Below are positions 1-20,014 of a stretch of DNA of 64,000 nt, one piece after another (positions within the stretch are counted from its first letter, which is position 1; each line of letters opens with the position of its first letter). The position numbers and the translations under genes are program-made. Origin of the DNA: Linderina pennispora (taxonomy: Eukaryota; Kickxellomycota; Kickxellomycetes; Kickxellales; Kickxellaceae); assembly GCF_002104995.1 (NCBI RefSeq), contig NW_024468252.1, positions 1-64,000 on the forward strand, read 5' to 3'. The notes under the pieces are model-generated. The model saw only the letters and a list, made by a program, of their open reading frames with translations. It was not told the DNA's origin and did not search any database.

Positions 1-210
1 ATGTCTATCTGAGTTGAGCATAACATTGGTGTTATGCTTGAATCTGATGAGCATGAACATGATGACTCAGCTTGAACTCCCACAATATCCCCTGACCCAG
101 CTCCCATAGATCCAAGTCCACACATAGTACAACAATGCAGTACCTTTATGCTGCAAAGACCAGTGACTGGTATTCCTGTCATTCATGCAATGCAATATCA
201 CTAGCAAGAC
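1..210. repeat. head-to-head degenerate repeat modules, copy pair 1
   Basis: A 9-bp hairpin (AGCATAACA at 17-25, TGTTATGCT at 30-38, TTGG loop) separates two divergently oriented module starts. Reading rightwards the sequence encodes a degraded peptide beginning LESDEHEHD and, at about 160-200, PVTGIPVIHA. Reading leftwards the complement starts MLNSD and leaves the window. The same two motifs recur in the pair at 655-1086. The right copy has stop codons, so it is not a working gene. The parent element is not recognised; a retroelement gag-like segment is one guess. Confidence 0.6.
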
Positions 211-654
211 ACTAGTGCATCAAAGCATATATATGCTTCAACTTGACAAGACTCCAAGACAATTCATTATCCAGTGTCTACTAGAGTTCCCTACTCATAT
301 ATTCTGTTTCAACCTGTTTCCCTCCTGTTTTTGAGTTTGAATACCATTTATTTAAACTTCACCTGAACCTGATAAGATCCCTTGACTCCATCCTCCTGCT
401 CTAGTACCTGACTCAGATATGTCTGCAAGTAGTTCATCCAGCCCCAAGTTCTACTCTGTTGCTTCCTCTGCCACTAACATAACATTGTGTTATTACCTGG
501 CCCAGGTGATAATGATTGAGCCAAATGGAAAGAAGAGCTTGAGTCAGAGATTATTGTATTCAGGAAATCAAAGTCAAAGACAGGATCAGAGTTATCCTTC
601 TCTCCATGTGCATGTATAAGATGTGTACTTATATATACCGATGCACACTTGAGC
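211..654. other. AT-rich repeat debris, no gene
   Basis: No supportable gene is seen. A further short inverted repeat (ATAACA-TTG-TGTTAT) near 477-492 resembles the hairpins at 17-38 and 851-871, but the flanking codons no longer match the module. A 66-codon open frame at 419-619 is low complexity and serine-rich at its start, and I do not believe it is a gene. Confidence 0.5.
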
Positions 655-1086
655 TAAGGTCTCAGGGCTGCATAGACAATAGGAATCCCAGTGACTGGGT
701 CGACCCTTGTCACATGGCTATGAGACTGGTCTTGTGGACTTGAAACTGAGACAGAGGAAGAGATGCGGGGCAATCATGGGTCTCGTATGTCTTGATCTTG
801 ATCTTGATCTAGGAGCGTATCAGCGACATGTTCATGATCGTCAACGACGGGCATAACAATCAGTGTTATGCTCAACTCGGATGAGCATGAACATGACGAA
901 GCCCACCTGCGAGATCAAGATCAAGATCAAGACCCGGGCCAAGACAACGTCACACACGCACAAGGTTCCACTCGCAATATAAACACAAGTACACTGCCTC
1001 GTCTACGGAACAAGTCCGCCCTTTATGCTCCTCTTACGGATCCTAACACAGGAATTCCTATCGTATATGCTACACCTAAAGCGTAG
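655..1086. repeat. head-to-head degenerate repeat modules, copy pair 2
   Basis: GCATAACA (851-858) and TGTTATGC (864-871) form a hairpin. To the right, 868-1086 is an open frame of 72 codons with DEHEHDE near the start, a DQDQDQD tract and DPNTGIPIVYATPKA at the end. To the left, the complement of 655-850 encodes DDHEHVADT, DQDQDQD, a stop codon, then DPVTGIPIVYA. The two copies are therefore an inverted pair of the same module. Only the right copy is open. No known domain is recognised. Confidence 0.65.
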
Positions 1087-1357
1087 CCAAGACACTCGTT
1101 GACTACTCCATATATATGGAGAAGTCAGACCGACAGGACAAGACAAGAACAACAAGCCCCCGAATATTCCTTGACTCAGAACCTGTTTCCAAATATAACC
1201 CGTTACAATCCCGACCTTCTCTCCCCGACGTCTGAGCTCCGGTTCGAGCTCTTCCGACGCTAGCTCCTTTGCTAGCATATTATCACTCCCGCCGAGCGAT
1301 AACATCAGAAATTGGGAAGTAATTCGGATTCATTATTGGATCGGATTCCTCAATTCA

Positions 1358-1430
1358 GGGGGTCTAGCTCAAATGGGAGAGCGCGCGCTTAGCATGCGCG
1401 AGGCACTGGGATCGATACCCAGGTCCTCCA
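1358..1430 (+). tRNA. tRNA-Ala(AGC)
   Basis: A 73-nt cloverleaf with the anticodon loop TTAGCAT (anticodon AGC) closed by a perfect CGCGC/GCGCG stem. The D-arm begins TAGCTC (A box) and the T-arm is CTGGG-ATCGATA-CCCAG (B box). The acceptor is GGGGGTC against GTCCTCC with discriminator A; one T-T mismatch and one G-T pair are seen in the acceptor stem. No intron and no encoded CCA. Confidence 0.93.
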
Positions 1431-2681
1431 TTCTTTTGCCTATTTTTTGCTTTCTCTGTAATCGTTTGAGCGAAGATGCTAGTTTGGTTTGCAAAGCTGC
1501 TCAGAAAGTAGAGATTGTAAAGAATAGAGCGCCCATTTTATCCTCGATTTCAGCAGGAGTTGCGACGCGTATTTTGTAGCAGTTTCTATACTTAACCTCT
1601 ATCATTCTAAGAAATTCTACTGGCTTACCCTATGAGATGAGCCAAGCCATATCAAATGGCTGTTGCTTGATGGTAGCAAGCTCCAGTATATATGCCTTAC
1701 TACCTACTTTATTTTTATATATTCTTATACCTTATTACTCCCCAGATCTAACCCTCCTCAGAGTACTACTTTTTGTCTTCAGCTGGCAGATAGAATATGC
1801 CTCTAGTTTATATGCAAACTAGTCCTACCCCTCCTCACACCTTGATCATTTTAACCACCCAACTTTCTAGATATGCTTTTCTAAGCTGATAGTCATAGGC
1901 ATACTAATAGATATTAGTAAGGGATTTTTGGAGGTAGTTATGAGGCTTTCTTCTGATCTATATATGTTGAGTAATGAATTATATAATCAACTTCATTCTT
2001 ATACTGGCTGCATGAGTAACTATGAACTGCTTTCAGCCCTTATCCATACTATGTAAGCTGTTCATTCATTCTTAAAATACTGGTGAAATTTCAAAGGTGA
2101 GGGTAGAAAGAGCCTCTATAAACATAGTTCAGCAACTAGGGAGTTTCATGGGGAGAGCATTTCTGGGATTCATGAAACGCAGTGTCCGTTTATTCACAGA
2201 TTTGTGAGTGAAAATTATGTTAGACCAATCCAAAACGCTAATGGTGGTTGAACAGACTTCACAAATAGGTGGTTGCATTTCTCCACATTCTCACTGGCTT
2301 CTCAAATGCAAACACATGGTAGCGGTTGAACAGCATTGAGTGATTACCGGGGCATGGGCCCCTTTGGTGAAAAAACAGTTCATGAACTGGTGTCAATCGG
2401 CGACTGATAGCAATTTATTAGATGATCAACATGACACTGGTCCGAAACTTAACAAAAAGGCAGCTTTCTGTTTGTGCAAGGAAACTAGAATCGCCAATAC
2501 TGTGCCATGTAGGCACTGGATGTGAAGTACTAGAGCAGGAAAACTGGGGTGTATCAGGGTATCTTGAAAAAGCCCATGGTCGTTCAAAGTAATCGCTGTA
2601 GGTGTCGCTGACAAATGGACTTCAGATGTATTGAGGGGGGGTTTTTTTTTTTGAGAAATGCTCGAAGCTCGAAGCAAGGGA
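1431..2681. other. AT-rich intergenic, no gene seen
   Basis: Short frames of about 60-120 codons occur on both strands, but none shows a domain, a signal peptide or protein-like composition. A G7-T10 junction lies at about 2634-2652. It probably holds tRNA termination (T-runs after 1430) and the promoter of the secreted peptide gene at its right edge. Confidence 0.5.
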
Positions 2682-2689
2682 TATATAAA
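2682..2689 (+). promoter_or_regulatory. TATA box for the gene at 2843
   Basis: TATATAAA lies about 155 bp upstream of the ATG at 2843 and is the only strong TATA element in the leader. It suits a strongly or conditionally expressed secreted-protein gene. The transcription start has not been mapped. Confidence 0.5.
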
Positions 2690-2842
2690 AGAGCACAACG
2701 AAGGCCACATATGAGAAGCAAACATTGCCAAGCAGCAGATAGTTCTTTTGTGTCCATTCCTCTCCGTCTTGCCGAACATCTTATCCACAAGTACACTTCG
2801 TTATCCGTTCACTAAAGCTGTTTGCCACGATACTCCTCGATC

Positions 2843-3319
2843 ATGAATATCACCAAATTTACCGTTTCGATCACCACTGTTTTCACTGCGGCTGTTTCGT
2901 TGGCAGCAGCCCTTCCAGTTGCTGATATTGCCAGTGCTTCGCTGGGTATTGCTCCTGCTCTCGAATATGTTGCACCAAAGGCACTGGGCTTGGACAACCA
3001 GGCGCAGCGCCAGCATGATTCTGCCACAGGTCTTGATGTGTCAAGCACCCAGAACTACCCAGCCCATTGCGATCGCCAGGGCAGCGGTAATCCACGCGGA
3101 TGGGACTATTTCAGTCAGCGCGATCGGCCGGTTTTGGCAGTTGCCAGATCGGACAAGCAAGCAGTCCGGGCTCGTGGCAGGGACTACTTTAGCCTGCGCG
3201 GCGAGTCCGGCAAAGAGCCAACGCTTGAAGAACCCTGCTGGAACTACCAGCTTTTACGCAAGCGCGATTCAGTTTCGGATGGGTATCTGCAGCGCGGATG
3301 GGACTACTGGGCTCAGTAG
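2843..3319 (+). CDS. secreted precursor with repeated WDY-type peptides
   Basis: A single-exon 158-aa protein. Residues 1-25 form a signal peptide (MNITKF, hydrophobic core, cleavage plausible after AAALP). After an Ala-rich pro-region, four related short motifs occur, each next to basic residues: RGWDYFSQR (85-93), RGRDYFSLR (111-119), CWNYQLLRKR (132-141) and, at the very C terminus, RGWDYWAQ (151-158). R, QR and KR flank the repeats, as in fungal precursors processed by Kex2-like proteases (KEP proteins, pheromone precursors). The open frame extends 7 codons upstream only through a non-ATG codon, so the ATG at 2843 is chosen. Role is inferred: a multi-copy secreted peptide, either signal or mating pheromone. 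A plain secreted repeat protein is the alternative. Confidence 0.75.
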   Translation: MNITKFTVSITTVFTAAVSLAAALPVADIASASLGIAPALEYVAPKALGLDNQAQRQHDSATGLDVSSTQNYPAHCDRQGSGNPRGWDYFSQRDRPVLAVARSDKQAVRARGRDYFSLRGESGKEPTLEEPCWNYQLLRKRDSVSDGYLQRGWDYWAQ

Positions 3320-3419
3320 CAATTTCGTTCACTCCTGCATTTTCTTCTAGACGCTCATTGTGGTTTATGAAATGAAATTTTTTAGACAGTCTGATAGGAT
3401 ATGCAAGAGAAAATTGGTG

Positions 3420-10882: not shown

Positions 10883-11080
10883 GGAAGATAGTATTTTTTA
10901 CAGGTGCTTTTTTTTTTAATTGATGCTGAGGGGCTGCGGTCGGAATGCAAAAAAAAAAAATGGCATTAATGGCTGTGGAACCGGCACGGTTTTGGGTACG
11001 ACGCTTGCGGGTTCCAGAAAAAAAAAATCAACCTCGTGTTTTTTGTTTGTGGAATCAGGGGTTTCGGCAATCCCGCTTTA
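10883..11080. other. ELP6 promoter and insertion-site flank
   Basis: About 200 bp with several poly-A/poly-T tracts. Its right edge (T on the minus strand, position 11080) is the host base immediately outside the CTAG terminus of the Fanzor-bearing unit. No gene is seen. Confidence 0.5.
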
Positions 11081-11231
11081 CTAGAAATATCTGCTCGCGA
11101 TGCGAGCTCGGCTGCTAGTCAGCATGGGTTGACACGTCGATAAGGGCATCACGGCGAACCGGTCATTTGAACGTGTCGGATGGTTGTTGGTGCAATGGCG
11201 ATCATGGACATCTCCCACCTTGATTGCCTGC
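11081..11231 (-). ncRNA. candidate guide-RNA (fRNA) region and 3' terminus
   Basis: In characterised Fanzor loci the guide RNA is derived from conserved non-coding DNA between the nuclease stop codon and the element's end (established for the family). Here about 150 nt separate the Fanzor stop (11232) from the CTAG end. The last roughly 75 nt, including a GTGTCAA block, CTGACTAGCAGCCGAGCTC and the terminal hairpin, are conserved in the mini-element at 48663-48847. Transcription and guide function are inference. Conservation may instead reflect transposition signals alone. Confidence 0.35.
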
Positions 11232-13815
11232 TCAGCGCAGACGTTTCAGGGCTGGTTCGCTGCTGCTGGCAGCAGAATCACCTGCAGCTGGTCCACGCCT
11301 CTTGTGCGGGTTCTTTGTTGCAGGGGTGGTGCCAGAAGTACCGGCAGCAATGGCCGTAGAACGACAGAACCGTTCAGGAATACTGCCTGAATCACAGAGT
11401 GACTGGAAAATGAGTCTGAAGTTTAGAACTGCTGCGAGATCGCGGTTCAAGAGCCGAGACGAATAGGCTCGCCTGTATTGTGCCATGGCCCGCTTACATG
11501 ACTCGCTTGTACAGCGGAGAAGGCCATGGCACTTCACAGTTGGGTTCTTCGATCTCTGGTAGGGCCGCGGATTGGGAACATGCCGGAATGTCTGCAGTGA
11601 CTTTTCGCAGCAGAACGGGCACACCGACGATGTCCGGAATTCGTCGATCAGATAGACTTCAAAGCCATGGTGCTTGAACTTGTCGCGCCATCCCTTGCCA
11701 CGAATCGGCGCATGGTGTCGGGCCATCGGCGCACTCCAATTGCCCATGATCAGCACTGGATCTGGACCGAACTTGCTCCGGAGTTTCGCGGCAAGCCTGT
11801 GGTCTGCACGGGCCTGGTTCATGAATGAATCAAGGCGCAGCTTGCGGTGAAGCGGGTACACCTTGGGACTGGTCCCGACACCCGGATGGGCCTTCCAGCG
11901 CCTCTGATGCTGCTTGTTTGACTTAGTGGGCTGCTGCTCTAGTAGCCTTCGCGCTGTCATCGTGTTGGCATAAAACGGTGCTAGGAAACACCGCACAGAT
12001 GCACGGGCAGCAACGTAGGCACGGAATTTTGCTGGGCTAAGGGTCCGGCAGCAGTGCTTGGAAAGCTCTGCCTCTGCTCTGCGGACAGCATCTTCTGGGA
12101 CTTGATCCTTTGTAGCCTGACGAATCCTGTCATAGTGGCGCAGCTTGAGCTCCTTATTGCGCTGCTGCCGTGTGTAGCGGTAGAGCATTCTCTCACCCTC
12201 TTTCCCATTGCTGCTATTTTCGTGCATCATGTATAGCAAATCGCCCCGACCTGGATCGATGAATACACAGCGGCCTTTCAGATTCTGCAGCTCTGGCTGT
12301 GGGATCTGGTGGATATAGCGACAGTCAGCTATAGTATTGCCTCCCACAGCACTACCTCCTGCAACATCGCCTGTAGCATCGCCTCCCACAGCATCGCCTG
12401 TAGCATCGCCTCCTGTAGCATCGCCTGTAGCATTGCCTGTAGCATTGCCTCCTGCAGCATTGCCTCCTGCAGCACCAGCCTTAGGATACCTTGTCTTGTA
12501 ACAAAATGCATATCGTTACACCATCTGTTGTCGCCATTCCGTGGAATTTTCTATCACCATGCGCCTTAAATGGCTTTGATGTTAGATCTGCGACCCGGCC
12601 CCATACATCCCACACAGATTGTGCAATCCCTTGGACCGGGTCGTGTGCACAGACTGGGGGTGCTGGTGCATATGCATTGTTAAGTGCTGCAACAGTGTCT
12701 GCTGCTGCCGCCGATGCAGCAGCAAGCGAATCAGCCGCTACTGCTGCAGTTGCTGCAGTGGCCTCTGTTTCATCTGATGGCATCTTCGCTGCTTCGCGTG
12801 CAGCCTTCTTGGCCAATTTTTCGCCCTTTTCTGCTGCTTTCCTTGCCTCTGTTGCTGCCCTCTTTGCTGCGTTGATCTTGGTAACCTGCTCACGGGTTTT
12901 CGAAATAAACACCTGCTTGAATATTTGGTTGTCTAAGCGCACATGGCCTGGGATCCATGATGTCCGCAGAGGCAAGCATTGAGGGGGAGACTTGCCAAGC
13001 TGCTCATTCTCGATAAGCTGGCATAGGCGAATGTATGCACGCAGATGCTTAAGTGGATTTACCTTGGCATCATAGTATCGGCTGTCTTTGGCGAATCTGT
13101 ACTTGGCATCATAGGCATTAAGGACTGGTGCCAGCTTGTTGTAGATTGCAAGCATCGGTGGGGTGAGCACACTGAGATCAGGGTGCCTAGAGGCAACTGC
13201 CTGGCGGAGCTTCTGTGCAGGTGTATAAATACACACTTGGCATGCATTATTGAACTCAGCCTTGGACACATTGCCCATTGTACTGTGCAGCGTGTTTTTG
13301 CGGCTGCGAACATCAATCAATTTGGCCAGAATCCGCTGTAGGCAAGTGCCATAGTGCAACACAATGTTGTTCTTGTATGCTGTCATCAGCTCGGTATCCA
13401 CGTATGTCGCTACCTGATTCATTTCACGTACGCCATGTAGCTCGATATCGCCATTATTTAATAGATAATCATAAATATGATATCTAATTACATCACCGAA
13501 ATCTGCGCTCGACAGTTCTGACCTGTCCTTCCGGTTAACGAAATCCTTGGCAGACATGGCCATCTTCGCCTTCAGGTTGTGATAAATAAATAAATAAATG
13601 GAACGAAAAAACCCCTTTTTTACAAATGTTGCAGGGTCAAAAGCATCATCATAAGCTAGTTGATGGAGTAATATCCATCGTGCAAGCATGTATGTATGCT
13701 CTTTGATGATATTGACGCTGTGTACAAATTGCTCTAGGCGGGGCAACATAGAATCACGGAAGCCAATACCACCAAGTGATGTCTTTATGACAGTAGTGCT
13801 GCGAGTAATATTCAT
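11232..13815 (-). CDS. Fanzor (eukaryotic TnpB-like) RNA-guided nuclease
   Basis: About 860 codons. The N-terminal part (13815-12500) is alpha-helical with conserved Fanzor features and ends GMATTDGVTICI. An Ala/Lys-rich segment and a Gly-Asn/Asp-Ala-rich repeat tract (about 12350-12480) follow. The nuclease part has RuvC-I CVFIDPGRGDLLYM (Asp codon about 12257), RuvC-II YLIDEFRTSS (Glu codon about 11642), a zinc ribbon with CPFC, KCHGLLRC and SESC, and RuvC-III LLNRDLAAVLNF (Asp codon about 11441). All three acidic residues are present. A basic tail with KRRG and LKRLR may be a nuclear signal. One frame break near 12495 is repaired by removing one T from TTTT (giving TICICYKTRYPK), so it may be a sequencing error. 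Fanzor genes are known passengers of several eukaryotic transposons, including Helitrons. Confidence 0.88.
12345..12480 (-). repeat. in-frame GGCGATGCTACA-type tandem repeat inside the Fanzor gene
   Basis: About ten imperfect copies of a 12-15-nt unit (GGCGATGCTACAGGA and variants with GGCAATGCTGCA). They keep the frame and encode Gly-Gly-Asn/Asp-Ala-Thr repeats just before the RuvC-I strand. It is probably a flexible linker. Slippage here could vary length between copies. Confidence 0.8.
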
Positions 13816-14347
13816 TTGAGAAATTCAATAGGCAAGTAAGAAGAGAAATGATGCTGTTCAGTTTTGCTGTATTGCGTATGCATAGCATTAAGAACTTTTT
13901 ATTAAAGATTTTCTGGCTTGCATGGTTCTTGGGGCCCTTAGCACTGATACAATCTCTTGGATAAGTCTATACAGACTGGGTCCGTTGTGACCCAAATACT
14001 ACCGCTTACGCATGTTCATAAGACAAATTGATTTATAAAATAAACCCACAAATATTGCATGACCGCTAGAAGAGCTATATGGCCTTACTCAATAGGTGCT
14101 CATAAATAAATATCCTAAGAGTGTTGCGCAGCCAGTGATGACCACTATGATGATGCCATGGAAATTATCAGGCTGACTGACAATGAGAGCAGCTCTTGCG
14201 CTGAACCAATGGAGATATCCAGCGGAGACCTGTGACCACTACAACAACAACTTGTCACCCTGGTTTCACCGGTGAGGTCAGATGCCGCACAAAACCAAAG
14301 GGAGTTTACAGAGCAAGTCACTCAAACCCATGTTGAAGCTTAAGAGT
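13816..14347. other. 5' region of the Fanzor unit
   Basis: About 530 bp upstream of the Fanzor ATG, presumably its promoter. On the plus strand 14119-14235 is an open, acidic stretch (DDHYDDAMEIIRLTDNESSS and onward) without an obvious start; it may be a scrap of captured coding sequence. Otherwise nothing is recognised. Confidence 0.4.
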
Positions 14348-14420
14348 TTTTTTAACCAATTAAATAATTTCTAGCAGACGGTCGGACACTTTTTTGGACT
14401 ATAAAATCTTATATATAAGT
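14348..14420 (-). repeat. 5' terminal repeat of the Fanzor-bearing unit
   Basis: A direct repeat of 19885-19958, near-identical over about 70 bp and in the same orientation. On the minus strand it reads ATATAAGATTTTATAGTCC, a T/A-rich spacer, GTGTCCGACCGTC, CTAGAAATTATTTAATTGG and a short poly-A. The mini-element at 48694-48740 shares the first half. Its location immediately beside the Helitron 3' CTAG marks a junction between two elements. Confidence 0.85.
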
Positions 14421-14421
14421 A

Positions 14422-14504
14422 CTAGCAGTCTCATGCTTGCGATGCAAGCGCACCTCTATGTGTGCCAAACGCTGTTTGTCACACATTTCGGTGGAGACTG
14501 CTAG
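14422..14504 (-). promoter_or_regulatory. Helitron 3' terminus with hairpin and framing inverted repeat
   Basis: The transposition terminator is the 6-bp stem, 3-nt loop hairpin at 14435-14449 followed by CTAG at 14425-14422. In addition CTAGCAGTCTC (14422-14432) is exactly inverted as GAGACTGCTAG (14494-14504), so the terminal 83 bp is a fold-back segment with CTAG at both ends. An internal CTAG also precedes the hairpin in the other two family ends (11115-11118, and about 48809). Confidence 0.8.
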
Positions 14505-14660
14505 CGCCTGCAGCGGGCTGAATACATAAATACAAATATGTTTTTGAATATAATAGGTTTTAATATAAAACATTTAATAATTTTAATACTAATAATAGTA
14601 TATGGTAGAAATTAGTATTAGCTAATAAAAAATATATTTATATATAAAGCTAAAATTAAA

Positions 14661-17600
14661 CTAAGAAAATATCTCCTTATAGACTATGTTTTTAGTCTTA
14701 GGTTCACTATCAGGATAATGTGTAGCTGACCCTAACATTATCTTGAGATTACTAAATGATTGTATGCGAGAAAGTGCCACGTAGAGTTGGCCATAAGTAA
14801 AGATAGGTGATGGAAGATAAAGCCCAACTCGTTCCATTGTTTGACCTTGGGCCTTATTTATAGTCATTGAGAAGGCAAGGTGGATTGGGAACTGGCATCG
14901 GCGTAGAACAAATGGTAATTGCTGGTGCTTAGTTGTTAATATCATTCGGAGTATAAATACCCTGGTACCATAAGCAGCACCAGTTATAATTTCAGCATCA
15001 ATCACATGGGGCTGTAATCTATGGCATATAAGTCGTGTGCCATTACATAGACCATGGGCTGAATCCAGGTTACGTAGGAGTATGATTGGTGCCCCTACTT
15101 TGAGGCGGAGGTGATGAGGTGGTAGGGTTCCACCAACATCTAGTGAATTAAGAAATTCAACTGGGAACAACTGCTGGGTCTCTGTAGTTGCACCATCAGT
15201 ATCTGCAATTGAGTCAGCACTATAGTAGTTAATGATAGTGCCTGGTAGATGGTCACTGATCTTGTTATTTAGATCATTCACTGAGGCATTAGTTGGTGAT
15301 AGGATGCTACGATTGACCATATAGTTGGCTTGATTATATTGATATGCTAAATTAGTATAAATTGCATTGATCAATAGCTCAACATTATCTGAGGGTATTA
15401 CAGTACCCACAGGCAATTGAATTTGGTCATATTCATCGCTGGGTAACCTTCCTTCCCCAACTTGAAGTAGCCAGTCAGCAAATTGGATTGCTGTATAATC
15501 CTGGGCACCAGCCCTAAGTTGGAGTCGCATATTGGTAGTAAGGTGTAGAATTTGTGGTTGACTCCATAATGGAGATCGGCAAAGAGCTGCATCAACAGTT
15601 TGAGCTCTATTTCCCTTTGGAATGACAGGGAGAATTTGGCGGAAATCGCCACCAGCTACTACTACCTTACCTCCAAAAGGCTGATGCTTAAGGGCTGGAT
15701 CAGCAGAGCACATTATATCCCGCAGTATGCGATCAAGGGCCTCAAATGTATGACGATGCATCATTGGTGCCTCATCCCAAATAATCAGCCTTGTGGCCTG
15801 GAGCAATGATGCCAAGTTAGTGCCAAGGGAGATATTGCATGTTGAAGTACTATCTACAATTAGAGGTATCTTAAATGTAGAGTGAGCAGTTCGACCGCCA
15901 GAGAGAAGCATAGCAGCAATGCCAGAGGAGGCAGTTGCTAAGGCAATATGGCCTTGGCTCCGAATATGAGCAAGGAGAAGCTTATACAGGAATGTTTTGC
16001 CACTTCCTCCAGGGCCATCAAGGAAGAAAAATGTTGCTGTAGTATTAGCTAACCCTTCTACAGCAGACATAATGGTATTATAGGCTGCTAACTGCTCAGT
16101 ATTAGCTATACGAAGCATCTGTTCAGTGCAATCAGCAAGCTCAGATTGATTAAATGATAGCTGCTCACTAATTAAATAGTTTTCAGTACTATCACCATTT
16201 GCATGTTCTGGTATTGGAACTGGCATGCCAGGATAGTCACTAAGTGAGCGCCCAGAGTGGAGAAGAATAGAGTTAATCTCCCTAAGGGCACTGTTAATAG
16301 CAGATTGCTCAGCGGCTTCCAGATTAGCTGTATGCATGAGGGCTCTATATAATAGATCATCAATTAGGCTTGTCTGGTGCTGTATCCATAGTGCATATGG
16401 GTTTACTGGGTTTTCTTGAGCAAGAATAGTGGCAAATAAATATCGGAGTTGGTGACCAATCTGGACTTGTGCAGCTTCATCTAAGCACCTAGCCCATTCG
16501 CGGTTATCTTCAAGCAGGCTAAGTGCTATACAGGCTTCTCTAAATGTTCGATAAACAACACCATTGATAGTCCTGAGATTTTCAAATGATATTGCACCAT
16601 GAACTACATTGAGTAGCATTCGGAGGTAGAATCGTTCTCCAGCTCTAGGAGAAACAAAGTAGATACGCCCAATTGTATTGCCTCTCTGCCTTGGCTTCCA
16701 GACATGCTGTTGGTGATTCCAGACAAAATGCTGTGGGTATTCAGCATATGTATATGCACGGGCCTCTGGGTGGGCAGCATTATAAGCAAACCACTATGTG
16801 AGTGTAGTATGTGCAAGGTGCTGCTGGTTAACAACTTCAGAAATAAGCTCACCATCATGAAAGAGAACCATTTGCTCCCCTGGTAAATGGACTTGAAGTC
16901 ATTGAATATCGGGCTTCTCCTCATGTAGGCGGAATGCAAAAATTCGCCAGATTGCCTCAGAAGTAGAGATATAGCGGCCATCAACATAGCTCTGGATCTC
17001 ATTCTCAACTGCAGTATTTGTTGTATCAGTTGTCCTTGCCCTTGTTATATGGAGAGCTGCATGATCATGGCCCTTGTACACAGATTTGAAAAGGTATTTG
17101 ACAGCAGTGATTGAGGAGCATACCTCAACATTAATATGTGCCTCATACTTTGCAGCTAGATAAGGGTTATAAGGTATAACCCATCGGTTATCAAGCTGCA
17201 TTCCTCTTATAGAAGCAAACTGCCCATCCTCACGCCGTCGATAAATTGGGTAGCCATTATTGGTGATTTGTGTGGCCTCTGAAAAGAATCTTGGGTAGCG
17301 CTTTGTGCAGTTGCCTTCTCTTACACATGGTGCCTGTAGGTTTAGTGGCCCGCATGGCCCATGCATCATTGAGGTGGCAATAACTCTAAAGAGCTGCATA
17401 TTCTGCTGTTCATTAGGAAGCTCAGCACATACCACTCGGTCGATTTCTGTGATAATTCGGTGCTTTGACTCGCTGTCCAGAATAAGCAGAATATGTGCAT
17501 GGGGCAACCCTCGCTTCTGAAACTCAACAGTGTAAATATGACCAGTGACCTGACCAAAAATATGCCTCTTCATTAGATCTTTAATCAGTTCCTTCAGCTT

Positions 17601-17951
17601 GATATTGAAGACACGAACTGTTAGATCTGGGCGATCAGCAGCAGATTGTCCAGGGAGTAATTCGGCCTGTACCTCCTGCCAACGGGGGTTGCAGGTGAAG
17701 GTAATAAATAGGTCAGGGGGACCGAATATCCTCACAATAGCCATTGCATCTTGATAGAGCTGATACATATGGCGGGGACCAGCAGTATATGAGGATGGCA
17801 ATATCACTCTACGACCAAGGTTAGCACCAACCATATCGGCTTCAGATAGCTGGACAGCATCTTGAAGGCCTATATATAGATAAATATGTTTGATTCAAGT
17901 TAGCAGCAGTTTCTTACTATTATAATAATTCATACTAAATGTGCATTAACC

Positions 17952-17993
<42 letters not shown>

Positions 17994-19583
17994 AGCATCA
18001 TTTCTTACTATATTTTATATATGATTGAAACTAATACATACCTTGGTACATTTCAGCACGAATATTATCTTGGTTTCTTGCATACCATCGTAGGCGGTTG
18101 CTCTCAATAGTGGAATATGCATCGACAATATACTGCTGGAATAACCTCCTACTTAGGTGGAGGATTGGAGCTGCCTCACCACGAAACTGAAGCCGGTAGG
18201 CATAAAAGGCCATCTGAGTTACATGGTTTTGGCGATGGGTTTCAGAGAGTGCTTCATCTCCAACGCCATTCTCCAAAATCTCTGAGATGTTATCCTGGGC
18301 TTGGATACTGTCTTGGCGTGTATGCCGATGACCTGAAATAGGAATGTCAGGATGCCAGCCATCCTCCCCACGTGGGAATAGAAGCACATAGTGCAGTACA
18401 GCATAGGCAACATGTAGCTCTGAAATCCGCTGTAGTGTACCATTAGTTGTCCGTAGGATGATATCACGGCCATTGTTTGTATATTGGCCATCGGGTACAA
18501 TTGCAGCTACTTCATCTGCTGTGGGTAAGTTGTAGCGACGCGAATCGTTATTGCGACCTGCTGTAATCGCTATGCATAGCTCAGGGGATGGATTCTGCTG
18601 GACAATTTCAGCAACCTGACGGAAGCGAGCAGCATACGGATTAACTGAATGGAGCATCTGCTGGAGGAGAGACAGAGTATTCTCATCAAGTCCAGGAATT
18701 GCAGTCATTCGATTTGCAAGCTCATTGGCAGTGTCGTAAATATACAGCTGTGCATACTGCGGCTGCTCGTTGCCATATACTGGAAGTAGTGATCCAATTC
18801 TATGGTACATCTGACCACGAACTCGAAAGTTAGAGACACCTATGATATAATATAATATGATTTGAGATGAGAGGAGATGATTCCAACAATTATATAGCTA
18901 TTCATAAAACAATCGTAGAACGTAGAACATAGAACATAGAATATAGAATATAGAATATAAAACATAGAATATTGGTACTTACCACCATGATGCCTGCTAA
19001 CTTCGCCATTAACTACTCCACCTGTTGAGGTAAAGGAGAGTACCGAGTTATACATTCGGATATTTCGCTGGAATTGCCGCGCTTCAGTGTTAGTGCCAGT
19101 CAATAGTCGAAGTAGTACTCCTGGTGGCGGTTGCAGAGCTGGAAGCACTACAGCTCCACGTACACAGCAGATCTGAAAAATTGGACATGTCATAGAGGAC
19201 TGCTGGATTCGTTCGGCAGTCCATAGCAAGGCACTACAACTGGTGCACTGCACATCCATTCTTCCAAGTCGGAGAGGTAACGTGTGTGCACCAGATACCT
19301 GCAATGCAAGCGGCAGATGTGCACCTGATGCAGTACGCTGAATCTGTCGTTGAGAAGCACGCTGAGCCTGTCGCTGAGAAGAACGCTGTCTGTTAGCAGC
19401 ATTGCGGCTCTCGTTGCTCTGCATTGCCCGTCGTCTCCGACTTCGTAATCTTTCCTGTTCAAGTTCATGGGAGCGGTCCCCTTGAGCACTCAAAGCCCTC
19501 TGACATTGGCGTCGTGTACGATCAGCAATCCGACGACGATAAGAAACCGAGGCATTATTCGTACTATTAGAATAGAATACCAT
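14661..19583 (-). pseudogene. Helitron RepHel transposase, three exons, two in-frame stops
   Basis: Exons 19583-18983, 18839-18042 and 17869-14661 join in phase to 1536 codons. Both introns are GT-AG (GTAAGT...CATAG; GTATGT...TATAG) and contain simple repeats. The order is an Arg-rich N terminus; a Helitron-like N domain (VSNFRVRGQMYHRIGSLLP spans the first junction); an HUH Rep domain with FQKRGLPHAHILLI; the tyrosine motif VKYLFKSVYKG; and a Pif1-family helicase with GGPGGSGKTFLY (Walker A), LIIWDEAPMM, and TINKAQGQTMERVG near the end. TGA at 16901-16899 and TAG at 16796-16794 interrupt the frame between Rep and helicase. The second catalytic tyrosine position carries Ser (TCT, 17084-17082). 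There are no frameshifts. It is a nearly intact but probably inactive transposase. Confidence 0.9.
17940..17992. repeat. (CAA)n microsatellite in RepHel intron 2
   Basis: An almost perfect run of about 14 CAA/AAC triplets inside the second intron. It has no coding role. Confidence 0.9.
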
Positions 19584-19884
19584 CGCTATTGCTTTTAAAT
19601 GAAGGAATAAATGAGGAGTATATATATAAGTATATATCTCAGTAAAACAAAGTCACAGTAAACCACAAAAATATGTAGAGAGAGAGAGTATGAGCGTTTA
19701 CAAAAAGAAAGTTTATATATATATACCAGGTTTTCTTGTCGTTGTTGTTGTTGTTGTTGCTCTTGTTGTTGTCATGACACTTGACAGGTATAGTAAGGTA
19801 TTGTATGATTGTTTAACAGGTCACACATGCATATTTAACAAAACACGTGCATATACACCCATTATTAAACTATAAAAATTTGTT

Positions 19885-20014
19885 TTTTTTTAACCAATTA
19901 AATAATTTCTAGCGGACGGTCGGACACTTTTTGGACTATAAAATCTTATATAAAGGTAAAGATAAAGATAAAAGATAAAGATAAAGAAGTAAAGATAAAG
20001 ATGTAGGACTGAGA
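19885..20014 (-). promoter_or_regulatory. Helitron 5' terminus
   Basis: From the A|TC boundary at 20015/20014 the minus strand reads TCTCAGTCCTACATC, an imperfect (TCTTTA)n array (about 20000-19962), and then the conserved TATAAGATTTTATAGTCC block and GTCCGACCGTCCGCTAGAAA. The start TCTCAG-CTACATCTTTAC is shared with the mini-element at 48663. The region also precedes the RepHel start at 19583 and may contain its promoter. Confidence 0.8.

Follow-up and report, generated by a model that had tools for sequence, protein, structure and literature searches.

Analysis of a 64,000-nucleotide window of the genome of the fungus Linderina pennispora (assembly GCF_002104995.1, contig NW_024468252.1, positions 1-64,000) revealed that the stretch 11081-14421 is a non-autonomous canonical Helitron (Helitron1), the single recognisable gene of which encodes a Fanzor1 protein. 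Both the Helitron and its gene lie on the minus strand, the comparison of ends across copies placing the 5' end at 14421 and the 3' end at 11081. On balance we find it probable that this element is mobilised in trans by a Helitron encoding the Rep and helicase proteins (RepHel), that it inserts at A^TA (the caret marks the insertion point), that its last ~97 nucleotides (nt) at the 3' end are the scaffold of a guide RNA, and that ATA is the motif of the nuclease, the empty allele being cut and then occupied by homing.

The genome (26,172,285 bases in 222 contigs, the window corresponding to contig C157) was searched with the sequence 11081-14421, yielding 67 matches from the 40 scored of 315 candidates. 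Thirteen of them, the window itself included, span the whole query (1-3341) and four more lack at most 15 bases, so the boundaries 11081 and 14421 proposed in the first-pass annotation are shared by other copies. A six-frame search with the C-terminal half of Fanzor gave at least 109 matches, from 107 of 323 candidates, and an exact 3'-end pattern was found at 98 places genome-wide (control pattern, 0); this pattern skips mutated ends and a shorter tail form, and the window copy, with a tail one base shorter, is not among the 98. The copy number of the family is therefore about a hundred. Fifty loci were fetched for detailed comparison, one of which (L019) lacks the 3' end, leaving 49 3' ends. 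Several small contigs (e.g., C5, C23, C53, C106, C171, C203, C221) are ~90-98.6% identical to stretches of large contigs; the assembly seems to be partly an unphased diploid or dikaryotic one, with small contigs as second haplotypes, duplications being the other possibility.

The 3' terminus is CTAG (11081-11084, minus strand), preceded by the terminal hairpin GCTCGC-ATC-GCGAGC (11093-11107, minus strand) and flanked by the target bases TA at 11079-11080. Among the 49 fetched 3' ends, the hairpin is followed by CTAG in 42, CTGG in six and ATAG in one, i.e., 48 of 49 have the hairpin with a canonical CTRR end. The opposite end is formed by a 5' non-coding region (13816-14421, minus strand), and in 19 of 29 copies (loci L001-L030) this 5' end bears the sequence TCTTTACC, the exact 5'-TC being absent from the window copy. 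Insertion between A and T without target duplication, most clearly seen in the empty allele on contig C221, and a partner with Rep and helicase sharing the 5' end are further features of canonical Helitrons. In its target, A^T, the element differs from Helitron2 (Helentron) elements, which have a TTTT^T/C or T^T target and a 5' hairpin with asymmetric inverted repeats. The first-pass annotation had rightly placed the Fanzor gene between Helitron termini, with the two ends interchanged: the hairpin-CTAG|T end at 11081 is the 3' end, and the hairpin-CTAG just beyond 14421, taken there for the right end of the element, belongs to a neighbouring RepHel Helitron. Its statement that no transposase of the element's own or of IS607 type is present was borne out, five further open reading frames (ORFs; 80-163 amino acids) overlapping 11081-14421 having no convincing Pfam match to a serine recombinase, as expected for an IS607 element (Fanzor2 type), or to anything else (best E = 0.044, below the cut-off).

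The insertion site is markedly regular. TA follows the 3' end in 96 of the 98 exact-pattern ends, the two exceptions lying at C3:18792 and C112:1614942. Of the 49 fetched ends 48 have it (by distinct site, 43 of 44), the sole exception, L080, having a degenerate hairpin and the flank CA; A follows T in 28% of cases in the flanks. This goes beyond the A^T rule of canonical Helitrons, where T suffices. Twenty of 22 loci have A directly ahead of the element, with boundaries picked by eye, a choice that favours A. The terminal base is G in all 49 fetched ends, and genome-wide the ends beside TA comprise 96 CTAG-TA, eight CTGG-TA and none with another last base; the third base of CTAG varies and the last does not.

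The first-pass annotation had also suggested a search for empty sites, and for this the flanks of 22 loci were joined and compared with the genome. Five junction-spanning alleles and one partial allele (L006) were recovered, 11 loci were interrupted and five left open; at the 11 interrupted loci both flanks occur on another contig 1-3.5 kb apart, indicating an insert of such size there. The empty allele on C221 is clean (GATA|TATT, no duplication), and that on C99 likewise lacks a duplication, with TC where TA was expected. The possibility that TA is part of the element was rejected since the C221 allele has the same TA without gain, although C99 (TC) and C112 (AA) leave some doubt on these two bases. 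In three of the five spanning alleles (C106, C1:1004414 and C206; loci L082, L083 and L085), 8-11 additional bases lie no more than 3 bases from the junction. Such filler has been reported for putative Helitron excision in rice and for maize (PMC4683698), and the extra bases may be excision footprints or repair filler, or reflect target deletion at insertion. Two further candidates were discarded: the seemingly spanning match of L014 is its own 5' end, and the site of L005 at C2:650k was not used as a clean empty site, being read as a putative recombination between 5' ends. Many 5' ends (L003, L006-L008, L013, L016, L021, L022) are preceded by repeated ATCTTT units. Neither of two empty alleles, those on C99 and C221 (loci L021 and L022), has this run, which therefore seems to have arisen with the element; the 5' end of the element appears to be extended in steps of TCTTTA at or after insertion.

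The Fanzor gene of the window copy consists of a C-terminal ORF (11232-12389) and an N-terminal ORF (12481-13815), both on the minus strand and homologous to Fanzor1 of Parasitella parasitica (E = 4.3e-57 and 1.1e-29, respectively), in agreement with the TnpB-like Fanzor recognised in the first pass. The three RuvC acidic residues noted there (D at 12255-12257, E at 11640-11642 and D at 11439-11441) and the four zinc-ribbon cysteines (11619-11621, 11610-11612, 11511-11513 and 11496-11498) are present, within the Fanzor1 signatures IDPGRGD, IDEFRTSS, CPFC, CTSESC and NRDLAAVLNF, i.e., a RuvC D-E-D triad with DPG and a C4 zinc ribbon before the last D; in the Pfam scan PF07282 scored below its cut-off. 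An intact copy matched the solved Fanzor1 proteins over both lobes (PpFz1, E = 2.1e-84; SpuFz1, 1.3e-34; GtFz1, 1e-5). Fanzor-like proteins of Coemansia, a genus of the same fungal order as Linderina, made up the majority of the best matches in a protein sequence search, with 31-44% identity over part of the protein. The frame break between the two ORFs, flagged in the first pass as potentially disabling, does split the window copy, but intact copies occur elsewhere, a continuous single-exon frame of 857-889 amino acids being found at 9 of 30 fetched loci. Across these nine copies the ratio of nonsynonymous to synonymous differences per site (pN/pS) is 0.32 (pN 0.025, pS 0.080), with an acid/Gly-rich linker at 1.62 providing an internal contrast; an Ala-rich linker is also present. 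By analogy with its relatives, the protein would be expected to perform RNA-guided, motif-dependent DNA cleavage. Six nuclease-deleted copies (L025-L030) have a left breakpoint mostly near query position 515 and right breakpoints at 1616-1718, and retain the 3' block and the N-terminal part.

The last ~97 nt of the element (11081-11177, minus strand) form a conserved block that is a candidate guide-RNA scaffold, with the guide beginning beyond 11081. Diversity in the last 100 nt is 0.037, vs 0.067 upstream (27 copies); owing to three forms of the tail, the last 20 nt are variable (0.066). The 3' non-coding distance among the nine intact copies is 0.030, vs 0.052 for the 5' non-coding region (the eight copies keeping it) and pS of 0.080. 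The 3' end of RepHel proved uninformative as a conservation control, its eight young copies having a diversity of 0-0.046 throughout. The minimum-energy fold, computed for the block of L003, has three stems (in window positions, minus strand, 11170-11177 with 11131-11138, 11111-11123 and 11093-11107), and the centroid has two. Published Fanzor1 guide RNAs have three stems and take bases of the target site into the scaffold (PMC10711439). The Rfam scan of the window returned only tRNA at gathering scores.

Next to the 5' end of the Fanzor element, and joined to it head-to-tail, lies a RepHel Helitron at 14422-~19962 (minus strand) encoding a Helitron Rep (PF14214, E = 5.7e-48) and a PIF1-like helicase (PF05970, E = 1.6e-78). 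Its own 3' hairpin, GCTTGC-ATC-GCAAGC (14435-14449, minus strand), ends in CTAG at 14422-14425. The outer ~75 bp of the Fanzor element (14347-14421) are 95% identical to the RepHel 5' end (two pieces of 98% and 94% in another comparison), and the two 3' ends have only the terminal hairpin plan in common. The frame is interrupted in the window copy, and no clearly continuous frame was seen in the four copies inspected (14422-19962, L032, L033 and L034), with introns unresolved in them; among these four, no active source of the transposase was found. On haplotig C5, the Fanzor element occurs at the window's site with its Fanzor-type 5' end and without RepHel (flank identity 94.8%); this contig starts inside the element and hence covers the 5' side, with the 3' flank outside it. 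RepHel therefore came second at this locus. The first-pass suggestion that a neighbour supplies the transposase is plausible in trans, although this adjacent copy is the later arrival and is itself interrupted in frame.

Under the reading we favour, Rep of a RepHel Helitron sharing the 5' end would mobilise the Fanzor Helitron in trans, and insertion at A^TA without target duplication would split the motif. The ~97-nt 3' end would double as Helitron end and guide-RNA scaffold, the guide RNA running through CTAG into the flank, of which the part beyond TA would be the guide. On the uninserted allele, the guide match would be preceded by ATA as target-adjacent motif; at the occupied site the G that closes the element would turn this into GTA, and the copy would spare itself. 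Were the last base A instead, ATA would reappear, which the invariant G would prevent. Cleavage by the nuclease would then hit the empty allele, and the element would be copied into it as the break is repaired with the occupied allele as template. The match between Helitron target and nuclease motif is suggested by the insertion sites, the ends and the motif assay of a relative: Fanzor1 of P. parasitica has the motif 5'-ATN (PMC11423790), and SpuFz1 has CATA (PMC10432273; one sentence of PMC11423790 gives the SpuFz1 and GtFz1 motifs reversed relative to this report, the version of which was taken). The first-pass idea that cutting promotes retention is thereby reshaped: the target A^TA resembles the putative motif of the nuclease, and the emphasis moves away from the empty donor. 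Helitrons are described as copy-and-paste elements (PMC5148889), and the empty allele would therefore matter more than the empty donor; Helitron excisions have nonetheless been reported (PMC4683698).

Several observations weigh against this reading. The Parasitella enzyme, a distant relative, needs only AT, and ATN alone leaves the fixed A unexplained. The TA regularity may be a target preference of Rep, which may also fix the terminal G. Coding windows lying 320-400 nt inward of the 3' end match the 3' block in conservation (diversity 0.027-0.041), the block of L003 folds no better than shuffled sequences (z = -0.55), and covariation is nearly absent, with one stem pair showing a double change and some pairs broken in some copies. 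The uninserted allele persists, whole or in part, at 6 of 22 loci. Finally, the N-terminal part has a pN/pS of 0.31 in the six nuclease-deleted copies, vs 0.22 in intact copies, and low pN/pS alone is therefore no proof of selection for cutting; the deletions may be recent or repeated, or the N-terminal part may keep a function.

Alternatively, Fanzor could be a passive, hitch-hiking passenger, with RepHel machinery preferring A^TA, the terminal G being an ordinary CTRR end and 3' conservation reflecting the Helitron end only, an explanation that we regard as possible yet doubtful. Canonical Helitrons do have the target A^T and the end CTRR (PMC3627910, PMC5148889), and copies without most of the nuclease domain have both multiplied and kept TA flanks (6 of 6 in L025-L030, L028 and L016 being one site); the folding of the 3' block, not above shuffles, is likewise as expected for a Helitron end only. 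Against a mere passenger stand the full frame kept at 9 of 30 loci with its pN/pS of 0.32 and a conserved block extending over ~100 nt. Rep, too, does not seem to demand TA, as the flanks of the eight RepHel 3' ends listed (14422-19962 in the window and L002, L005, L012, L025, L032, L033 and L035) are TC in five, TA in two and TT in one. Two pairs of these ends are alleles of one locus each, and by locus the counts become three, two and one of six. This contrast is weak, since the RepHel sites, those with TC included, are few and alike and all the listed 3' ends lie at Helitron 5' ends.

At the other extreme, the family could be a dispersed RNA-guided drive, in which the ~100 copies, nuclease-deleted ones included, would each direct a guide against their own uninserted allele and share the intact Fanzors in trans, A^TA again being the split motif; we hold this to be rather unlikely. 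The TA rule and the terminal G would then be marks of motif-target coupling, and the surviving empty alleles would be escape alleles. Each of the five spanning empty alleles is indeed altered in the motif or the first 12 bases, with nine events among 65 positions compared with 17 among 341 elsewhere (post hoc Fisher test, p = 0.022), and the 13 bases upstream are altered in two of the five. On the other hand, five occupied pairs also show four changes in 60 near positions vs one in 140 farther out, and three of the empty-allele changes are the 8-11 bp junction fillers, as reported for Helitron excision (PMC4683698).

It is improbable that RepHel and Fanzor travel as a single ~8.9-kb composite in which the RepHel 3' end is passed over. 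All eight RepHel 3' ends among the matches listed (~6 loci) abut a Helitron 5' end head-to-tail, and seven of the eight listed abut a Fanzor element or its 5' part. The junctions, however, have three different sequences, only 5 of 29 Fanzor 5' ends (L001-L030) follow a RepHel 3' end, and the RepHel-free Fanzor element of C5 led to rejection of a composite unit at the window's locus; RepHel seems instead to target Helitron 5' ends. Least probable of all is an action of Fanzor in trans against other elements, such as competing transposons, or host sequence, and not against the uninserted alleles of its own sites. In its favour, two copies (L005 and L014) are nested inside Helitron 5' ends, and their guides would be directed at the Helitron family; only these two were noticed, however, and the motif-target match points to the element's own empty sites.

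Among known systems, TnpB of IS200/IS605 elements offers a parallel: transposition is single-stranded, the nuclease motif is the insertion motif, the guide is read from the flank and the motif remains whole on the left flank, whereas in the Linderina element insertion would fall inside the motif. Saito and others (PMC10432273) have pointed to a possible resemblance of Helitrons to the peel-and-paste cycle of TnpB elements. As a precedent, Bao and Jurka (2013; PMC3627910) described CRe-1, CRe-2 and CRe-3 of Chlamydomonas reinhardtii, non-autonomous rolling-circle elements with a Fanzor1, which likewise share ends with autonomous Helitrons and often occur as truncated and deleted copies. They differ in being Helitron2 elements with two hairpins, asymmetric inverted repeats, insertion after TTTT, target duplications in many copies and a multi-exon gene, in contrast to the canonical fungal Helitron1 described here, with 5'-TC, CTAG-3', insertion at A^T, no duplication and a single exon. 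PpFz1 of P. parasitica (PDB 9cf0; PMC11423790) is the closest relative of solved structure, and its motif ATN contains the Helitron target AT; it has an FRI domain, the Linderina protein having Ala-rich and acid/Gly-rich linkers, and the available portion of that report does not mention its transposon context as a Helitron. SPu-1 of Spizellomyces punctatus, the source of SpuFz1, is similar in being a fungal Fanzor1 with the motif CATA and TA at the insertion site, but it is not a Helitron, having 33-bp terminal inverted repeats and TA duplications (PMC3627910, PMC10432273). In an alga, the most abundant repeat encodes a Fanzor (PMC12633428). As far as the literature searched extends, Fanzor1 in a canonical Helitron is new, the described Fanzor-bearing Helitrons being the Helitron2 elements of Chlamydomonas (PMC3627910).

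The Linderina family combines high copy number, intact genes, clear ends, readable insertion sites, and occupied and empty alleles within one genome. Together with the agreement between its insertion site and a Fanzor motif from the literature, this makes the homing idea directly testable in a single fungus; if the idea is true, every copy may target the allele of its own site that lacks the insertion.

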